A stretch of DNA of 64,000 nt from Neonectria sp. B-13 (lineage: Eukaryota > Ascomycota > Sordariomycetes > Hypocreales > Nectriaceae): positions 4,219,296 through 4,283,295 of the forward strand of contig NOKP01000001.1 of assembly GCA_002682825.1 (NCBI GenBank), in the 5' to 3' direction. The notes beneath the pieces are model-generated. The model made no database searches. It saw only the letters and a list, made by a program, of their open reading frames with translations, and was not told the origin of the DNA. Positions within the stretch are counted from its first letter, which is position 1, and every line of letters begins with the position of its first letter. Below are positions 20,214-21,230 of this stretch, piece after piece. The translations under genes and the position numbers were made by a program.

Positions 20214-20225
20214 AAAAAAATAAAA
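20214..20225 (-). terminator. Pol III terminator of tRNA-Arg copy A
   Basis: On the minus strand TTTT-A-TTTTTTT starts 22 nt past the tRNA 3' end. Runs of four or more T stop RNA polymerase III. Confidence 0.75.
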
Positions 20226-20246
20226 TCACACTTGATTGTGCTTGTA

Positions 20247-20371
20247 GGTCACGGTGGGGCTCGAACCCACGATCTCCTGATTCGTAGTCAGACGCCTTGC
20301 TAGAGGGGTTGTTAGATGATGATCTGTTTATGGGAGGATGGGAAGATGCATACCCATTGGGCCACGCGACC
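20247..20371 (-). tRNA. tRNA-Arg (anticodon ACG), copy A, interrupted in the D-loop
   Basis: Read on the minus strand, a complete tRNA-Arg cloverleaf is present but split. The 5' part is acceptor GGTCGCG, then TG and D-arm GCCCAATGG. After a 54-nt insert come AAGGC (D-stem 3' side), anticodon stem TCTGA/TCAGG with loop CTACGAA (anticodon ACG), variable AGATC, T-stem GTGGG/CCCAC with loop TTCGAGC, and acceptor CGTGACC. There is no intron at the canonical 37/38 position. The internal Pol III A box (TGGCCCAATGG) ends exactly where the insert begins, and the B box (GGTTCGAGCCC) is intact. Without the insert the tRNA body is 71 nt, with G18-G19 and A21 in place. The next genomic base (discriminator 73) is T. 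Without the insert removed, the D-arm could not form normally. Confidence 0.9.
20300..20353 (-). other. 54-nt spliceosomal-type intron in D-loop of tRNA copy A
   Basis: The insert begins GTATGCATC and ends CTAACAACCCCTCTAG: donor GTATGC, branch point CTAAC 11 nt before a TAG acceptor. Its size and signals match the protein-gene introns in this window (for example 55 nt in the kinesin gene, 50 nt in the RRM-GAR gene). Precise GT-AG removal joins AATGG to CAAGGC and restores a 7-nt D-loop. Confidence 0.8.
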
Positions 20372-20444
20372 GTGCTGTTCTGATGGTGAAGTTGCGGCGT
20401 CTTGCAGTCTAAGTTGTGAGACACAGACACGACCGAGTTGAAGC

Positions 20445-20449
20445 AAAAA
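20445..20449 (-). terminator. Pol III terminator of tRNA-Arg copy B
   Basis: TTTTT on the minus strand, about five bases past the tRNA 3' end. Confidence 0.75.
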
Positions 20450-20453
20450 GATA

Positions 20454-20579
20454 GGTCACGGTGGGGCTCGAACCCACGATCTCCTGATTCGTAGTCAGAC
20501 GCCTTGCTGGATGGATTGTTAGTTACTGAGACACAGTCTAGCATTCGAGAATGATGCTTACCCATTGGGCCACGCGACC
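20454..20579 (-). tRNA. tRNA-Arg (anticodon ACG), copy B, interrupted in the D-loop
   Basis: The second copy, 82 bp upstream of copy A in transcription order, has tRNA halves identical to copy A (18 nt before and 53 nt after the insert). Acceptor GGTCGCG pairs with CGTGACC through one G-T wobble. The anticodon loop is CTACGAA, the T-loop TTCGAGC, and the discriminator T. The insert sits at exactly the same D-loop position as in copy A but is 55 nt long with a largely different sequence. Preservation of every stem in both copies argues that these are working genes, not relics. Confidence 0.9.
20507..20561 (-). other. 55-nt spliceosomal-type intron in D-loop of tRNA copy B
   Basis: Begins GTAAGCATC and ends ACTAACAATCCATCCAG: a canonical fungal donor, an ACTAAC branch point 13 nt before the CAG acceptor, and typical length. 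The first ~9 and last ~18 bases resemble copy A; the middle does not. Confidence 0.82.
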
Positions 20580-21230
20580 GTGTTGTTCCGATGTGTAAAT
20601 TGCTCGATTTTGTGGTCTATATTGTGGGCATGGCTTTGCTCGCTTTGAAGTGGAGATTTTGCGTCGTGGCTCCGCATTCATGAGACCTGTCACGTGGGCT
20701 GGCTCCACCGTAGCAGGTACGGGAGTGGGGAGGTACTTGCATCAAAATGTGGCAGTGCGACCACTACTACTTACTTACACGTCTAGTTCTGAGAAGATCA
20801 GAGTGTGGGTGATCAAGTGCATATATTACAGTCGAACGGCTGACACTCGGCTTGGCGGTGTATGACTCGTCTTACCGCGACAAGCAACAGGCCACTTCAA
20901 TTTGGATACCCTCGACCTTTGACACGGGGCTATTTCCCAAGGGCGTTGGTTGAGCTCCATCAGAACATTCCTTGAAGTCTCCTGTGCTCTGTACAGTTGA
21001 CATGATAATTGATGTCAATGCTTACTCAATATGAGAGTGAGATGGGACAAGATGAAGGATTTCCCAAAGCAGAAGCTTCTATTAGTGGCTCGACCTAGAG
21101 TCGTCGAGAAGAGATGTAAGTCATAACGCACCGGCCTGGGACGCGGCGTCGAATGGAGTCTATGCACTTAGGTTATATACAAGGGTGTTGGCCGTAGGCT
21201 CTTCTGATATATGCACAACGCAAGCTCGAA
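20580..21230. other. intergenic
   Basis: About 650 bp between the tRNA pair and the 3' end of the hydrolase gene. No gene supported. The first ~50 bases resemble the flank of copy A and look like part of the same tandem duplication. Confidence 0.5.

Follow-up and report, generated by a model that had tools for sequence, protein, structure and literature searches.

Predicted spliceosomal introns in the D-loop of all seven tRNA-Arg(ACG) genes found in a Neonectria genome

Results

Two tRNA-Arg(ACG) genes in the window are split in the D-loop

The window, a stretch of 64,000 nucleotides from Neonectria sp. B-13, contains two tRNA-Arg(ACG) genes on the minus strand (copy 1, 20579-20453; copy 2, 20371-20246), which lie 208 bp apart from start to start (Table 1). 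In both copies, the 5' half ends in G18-G19 and is separated from the 3' half by an insert in the D-loop. A preliminary description of the window, made from the sequence alone, had placed minus-strand D-loop inserts of 54 and 55 nt here, and we confirmed both, with 55 nt in copy 1 and 54 nt in copy 2. The splice signals that it had assigned to the inserts are also present, namely the donors GTAAGC and GTATGC, the branch sequences ACTAAC and TCTAAC, and the ends CAG and TAG in copy 1 and copy 2, respectively. As it had further stated, the canonical intron site at 37/38 is uninterrupted; the anticodon loop CTACGAA is whole in these two genes and in the five others described below. A TATA-like element was looked for upstream of both copies and was not found upstream of copy 2.

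Table 1 Features of the two split tRNA-Arg(ACG) genes in the window
Feature	Position	Strand	Remarks
Copy 1, TATA-like element TATAGA	20616-20621	-	42 bp upstream of the tRNA
Copy 1, 5' exon	20562-20579	-	18 nt, ends at G19
Copy 1, A box TGGCCCAATGG	20562-20572	-	inside the 5' exon
Copy 1, D-loop insert GTAAGC...CAG	20507-20561	-	55 nt, predicted spliceosomal intron
Copy 1, branch motif CTAAC	20518-20522	-	predicted branch A at 20519 (putative choice of A)
Copy 1, 3' exon	20453-20506	-	54 nt including the discriminator T; uninterrupted anticodon loop CTACGAA
Copy 1, B box GGTTCGAGCC	20465-20474	-	inside the 3' exon
Copy 1, T run TTTTT	20445-20449	-	predicted Pol III terminator
Copy 2, 5' exon	20354-20371	-	18 nt; A box at 20354-20364
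Copy 2, D-loop insert GTATGC...TAG	20300-20353	-	54 nt, predicted spliceosomal intron
Copy 2, branch motif CTAAC	20311-20315	-	predicted branch A at 20312 (putative choice of A)
Copy 2, 3' exon	20246-20299	-	54 nt including the discriminator T; B box at 20258-20267
Copy 2, T runs TTTT and TTTTTTT	20214-20225	-	predicted Pol III terminator

Seven split copies and no uninterrupted one among the matches found

We searched the 60.9-Mb assembly of this genome (123 contigs) with three query designs. One protein encoded in the window was also compared with known proteins; its top match, at 93% identity, is from Neonectria magnoliae, with Cylindrodendrum, Ilyonectria and Dactylonectria next, so that this single protein marks the organism as Neonectria-like. 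With the 3' half of the tRNA as the query, seven tRNA-Arg(ACG) genes were found, two in the window, four on contig C39 and one on contig C51. All seven matches are split and none is an uninterrupted gene; the insert follows G19 at the identical D-loop base in every copy, with lengths of 55, 54, 52, 55, 57, 54 and 55 nt. The anticodon arm, allowing up to two mismatches, gave 36 matches compared with 43 for a reversed control. Its exact matches were the seven split genes only, no uninterrupted gene was present among the places checked, and the 14 of 29 inexact matches that were examined with ARAGORN and for a B box contained no tRNA. The joined 72-mer gave seven matches to the 3' half and one 16-base match to a 5' half, and no full-length match. 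Thus, an uninterrupted tRNA-Arg(ACG) gene elsewhere in the genome, which the preliminary description had named as grounds against its reading, was looked for with three designs and not found; its absence is unproven because all three score only the best candidates.

The four genes on contig C39 lie within 3.5 kb (C39:3117900-3121450) in the orientations +, -, + and + and carry four different inserts. Assembly duplication as the source of the copies was considered and dropped, since all seven inserts differ from each other. Mirror-image pairs of matches were noticed on contigs C105, C114, C60 and C27, and likely on C38, C41 and others; on C114, C60 and C27 the paired coordinates sum to the length of the contig plus one, as in a contig that was assembled as its own inverted repeat. 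These mirror-image contigs are probably an assembly artefact that inflates the figure of 60.9 Mb, and there was no sign of the pattern at the seven ACG loci.

The split genes escape standard tRNA annotation. ARAGORN called no tRNA in the window and, genome-wide, none of the seven ACG genes. At the gathering score, Rfam missed both window genes; when the threshold was relaxed, it scored nothing but the 3' parts of the two copies, at 25.5 and 23.7 bits (cut-off 29). Over the genome, the Rfam tRNA search listed 63 places; the seven ACG genes alone fell short of the cut-off, which the other 56 exceeded. This list is not a full tRNA census: the 49 of those 56 that were typed include, for example, no tRNA for Ala or Gly. 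The longest intron among the tRNAs typed is a 47-nt anticodon-loop intron called by ARAGORN in a tRNA-Ser(TGA) gene (C94:1261965-1262092, minus strand).

Two patterns combining the A box with a donor matched 13 places each over the genome, and a B box lies behind the insert only at the seven ACG genes; the patterns catch only inserts that follow GG at the ACG site and have a GTAWGY donor. In viral contigs, the anticodon-arm pattern had no match, and none of the 13 matches to the A-box-plus-donor pattern was followed by an ACG 3' half. Genome contigs gave eight matches titled as bacteria. In the Sordariomycete Podospora anserina, the tRNAscan set is described as decoding all 61 sense codons (PMC2441463), which hints that a split tRNA-Arg(ACG) may not be universal in the class.

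The splice signals are conserved in inserts that have drifted apart

All seven inserts (52-57 nt) start with the donor GTAWGY and finish with AG, and they share the motif CTAACA as well as a T five bases from the end. In each of them CTAAC stops 10-11 nt short of the 3' border, and in each the GT...AG borders restore the host RNA; an alternative border one base further left leads to an identical product. When the inserts were shuffled, CTAAC fell in the right place in 1.3-3.6% of the shuffled sequences, compared with seven of seven real inserts. The corresponding chance product over the seven, ~1e-12, is an overstatement because the copies share ancestry and are not fully independent.

Outside these signals, there is little likeness between the inserts. 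Their middle holds 0.50 bits per column, compared with 0.46 for seven random letters, and for 19 of the 21 pairs of insert cores the similarity does not exceed the highest value in 100 shuffles. The other two pairs are slightly above all shuffles (0.72 vs 0.69), which counts against a spliceosomal reading. The exons are identical in six copies, and the C51 copy differs at 2 of 72 positions. The exon identity points to selection on each copy, because gene conversion acting along entire genes would have made the inserts uniform too.

The preliminary description had also held that the insert lengths match those of mRNA introns in the surrounding genes, and this is borne out only in part. By joining open frames in the window, we collected 23 candidate mRNA introns of 46-115 nt with CTAAC (8), CTGAC (9) or CTGAT (6) as branch motifs. 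The median of the candidates is 70 nt, and 3 of 23 are 52-57 nt long. The candidates are thus longer on the whole than the ACG inserts, which counts against a spliceosomal reading; since the set is noisy and was selected for donor and branch motifs, it shows compatibility only.

The joined tRNA and its Pol III signals

Removal of the inserts from GT to AG leaves identical tRNA bodies in the two window copies, as had been claimed; the claimed length of 71 nt lacks the discriminator base T, and the joined product is 72 nt long. These 72 nt are able to pair as a cloverleaf with a computed energy of -23.1 kcal/mol. For the sequence shared by six copies, the computed minimum is a non-cloverleaf fold (-26.8 kcal/mol), and the fold of the C51 variant (-24.4) has normal acceptor, anticodon and T arms with a different D pairing; both results count against a spliceosomal reading. 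Computed folds of unmodified tRNA sequences are often wrong. The joined D-arm has the same length as that of the uninterrupted tRNA-Thr(CGT) of the same genome, from which it differs at two bases, and is one base shorter than the D-arms of tRNA-Arg(TCT) and tRNA-Arg(CCG).

All seven genes have a complete A box that ends right at the insert, an intact B box and, within 22 nt downstream, a first run of at least four T. A TATA-like element is located at -37 to -43 in six of the seven (five TATA and one ATATGG). None of the inserts contains TTTT, and neither do 36% of shuffled sets; this absence was dropped as evidence for Pol III and says little, because 64% of shuffled sets contain such a run.

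A U6 gene of the same genome carries a similar insert

We found two matches to U6 snRNA in the genome. One of them (C83:406813-406915) is uninterrupted, while in the other (contig C1, 5177376-5177481, minus strand) the sequences CGATAC and AGAGAAG, contiguous in the intact C83 copy, are separated by a 55-nt insert, GTGAGT...CACTAAC...CAG. With its GT, CTAAC and CAG, this insert means that another Pol III-type gene here bears an insert like those of the ACG genes. It also contains the B-box-like sequence GAGTTCGAAAC; the U6 intron of fission yeast holds a B box.

Discussion

Spliceosomal removal and its alternatives

The sequence evidence that the inserts are spliceosomal introns is strong. We consider it very probable that the inserts of all seven tRNA-Arg(ACG) genes are U2-type spliceosomal introns that would be removed by the spliceosome from a Pol III transcript. 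Since the splice signals are kept in drifted inserts, the Pol III signals are kept, a bulge-helix-bulge is missing and a U6 gene has a like insert, spliceosomal removal from a Pol III transcript is, with high confidence, the most economical reading of these sequences.

The introns might be spliceosomal and the working transcripts come from Pol II, the usual source of transcripts with such introns, without any crossover to Pol III. It would then be odd that the A box, the B box and the T run are kept in all seven genes and that a like insert is found in the U6 gene of the same genome, and we regard a Pol II origin as very unlikely.

Another possibility is that the tRNA splicing endonuclease cuts out the inserts as non-canonical tRNA introns, guided by a bulge-helix-bulge or a comparable fold, and that tRNA ligase joins the halves, as is reported for Cyanidioschyzon merolae and many Crenarchaeota. 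Eukaryotic endonucleases need no strict motif at 37/38, and this genome does make use of the endonuclease route, since ARAGORN places introns after bases 36-39 in several other tRNAs. Non-canonical introns in the D-loop are described elsewhere (PMC4090602, PMC3978253). However, none of the seven inserts is at 37/38, and the junctions lack the central helix of a bulge-helix-bulge, with 1-2 of 4 pairs in all seven genes compared with 2-3 of 4 in the His and Met introns of the genome, a small control. Cleavage by the endonuclease would also leave the conserved GTAWGY, CTAACA and AG without a reason, so we give it a slim chance.

Alternatively, the seven genes could be disrupted pseudogenes, with an intact tRNA-Arg(ACG) gene outside the searched sequence. 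Short insertions in the D- or T-arm of single eukaryotic copies are usually read as pseudogenes (PMC4090602), the assembly may have gaps, and the search is confined to the best-scoring candidates. Against this stand the exons, which are intact in all seven genes, and the three query designs (3' half, anticodon arm and joined 72-mer), which revealed only split tRNA-Arg(ACG) genes among the matches examined. A set of seven pseudogenes is therefore highly improbable.

In group I introns, the last base of the 5' exon is a U, whereas all seven 5' exons here end in G; moreover, the predicted folds of the inserts vary between copies, and retention of the inserts would leave the conserved splice motifs unexplained. 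It is hardly credible that the inserts represent degenerate group I introns or self-splicing introns of another type, or that they are kept in the mature tRNA, even though fungal rRNA genes are reported to have putative group I introns of 56-81 nt (PMC3160393).

A proposed route to the mature tRNA

For spliceosomal removal, we propose the following route. The tRNA-Arg(ACG) gene would be transcribed by Pol III; TFIIIC tolerates a widened spacing of the A and B boxes in intron-bearing tRNA genes. U1 and U2 would recognise GTAWGY and CTAAC in the short uncapped transcript, and two transesterifications would release the lariat and join the exons. After joining, the D-arm would fold, and end trimming, modification and editing of A34 to inosine would follow.

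A tRNA-Arg(ACG) with A34 converted to inosine reads CGU, CGC and CGA, and the inosine-bearing tRNA-Arg is the expected reader of CGU and CGC codons, so that the spliceosome would be needed to translate them. A rough count over the stop-to-stop frames of six window ORFs gives 51 CGC and 21 CGT among 194 Arg codons. We think it likely, judging from the genes found, that the whole essential tRNA-Arg(ACG) family is off the tRNA endonuclease and matures only via the spliceosome, in which case CGU/CGC decoding and global translation would be gated by mRNA splicing, and nuclear tRNAs would have a second, separate means of intron removal. As for the origin of the introns, the tRNA-Thr(CGT)-like D-arm TGGTAAGGCG already holds the donor-like sequence GGTAAG, and we speculate that it could have favoured intron gain at this place.

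The splicing of tRNA and that of mRNA are usually treated as separate pathways with separate enzymes. If the spliceosomal reading is true, it is the signals in an RNA, whatever its class, that decide the splicing route; splicing is then possible in an uncapped Pol III transcript whose donor is preceded by a tRNA exon of 18 nt, and the decoding of two arginine codons is tied to splicing capacity. There is also an annotation blind spot, because ARAGORN misses the seven genes altogether and all of them stay under the Rfam cut-off; a tRNA-Arg(ACG) that is seemingly missing in other fungi might be split. Finally, the reading opens intron gain in tRNA genes to study.

Comparison with known systems

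Nuclear tRNA introns away from 37/38, including the D-arm, are described in C. merolae and in the nucleomorphs of cryptophytes and chlorarachniophytes (PMC4090602, PMC3978253). The ACG genes resemble these in the place of the insert; in contrast to C. merolae, for which recognition of a bulge-helix-bulge is described, they show no such structure and have conserved mRNA splice motifs. A review by Yoshihisa names nucleomorphs and C. merolae as the eukaryotes with non-canonical tRNA introns, and its accessible text contains no word beginning with 'spliceosom-' (PMC4090602). The same holds for the accessible text on tRNAscan-SE 2.0, which covers 432 fungal genomes and treats non-canonical introns for archaea (PMC8450103). 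In the open-access literature, our searches turned up no tRNA gene described as carrying a spliceosomal intron.

The preliminary description had called a spliceosome-dependent Pol III transcript unexpected and knew of no described case. For Pol III transcripts in general this does not hold, as the U6 snRNA of fission yeast has an intron and other fungi provide the same precedent (PMC5832005); for a tRNA as the host, the claim appears to stand within the open-access literature. Fungal U6 introns are similar to the inserts of the ACG genes in that a small structured RNA, as a rule made by Pol III, is interrupted by a GT...CTAAC...AG insert, as is also the case in one U6 gene here. They differ in that the tRNA host is not part of the splicing machine and in that all seven tRNA copies found are split, compared with one of the two U6 genes found. 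In fungal U3 snoRNA, ordinary spliceosomal introns likewise interrupt a non-coding structured RNA, of a class other than tRNA, and apart from U3 and U6 no small structured RNAs are described as frequent hosts of introns (PMC5832005).

The rDNA of ascomycetes and lichens also has spliceosomal introns outside Pol II transcripts, in this case in an rRNA made by Pol I, and a 57-bp spliceosomal intron of lichen rDNA was removed after its transfer into yeast rDNA (PMC8527467). Taken together with these systems, the kind of intron proposed here is known, and the tRNA as its host appears to be new among the open-access literature.
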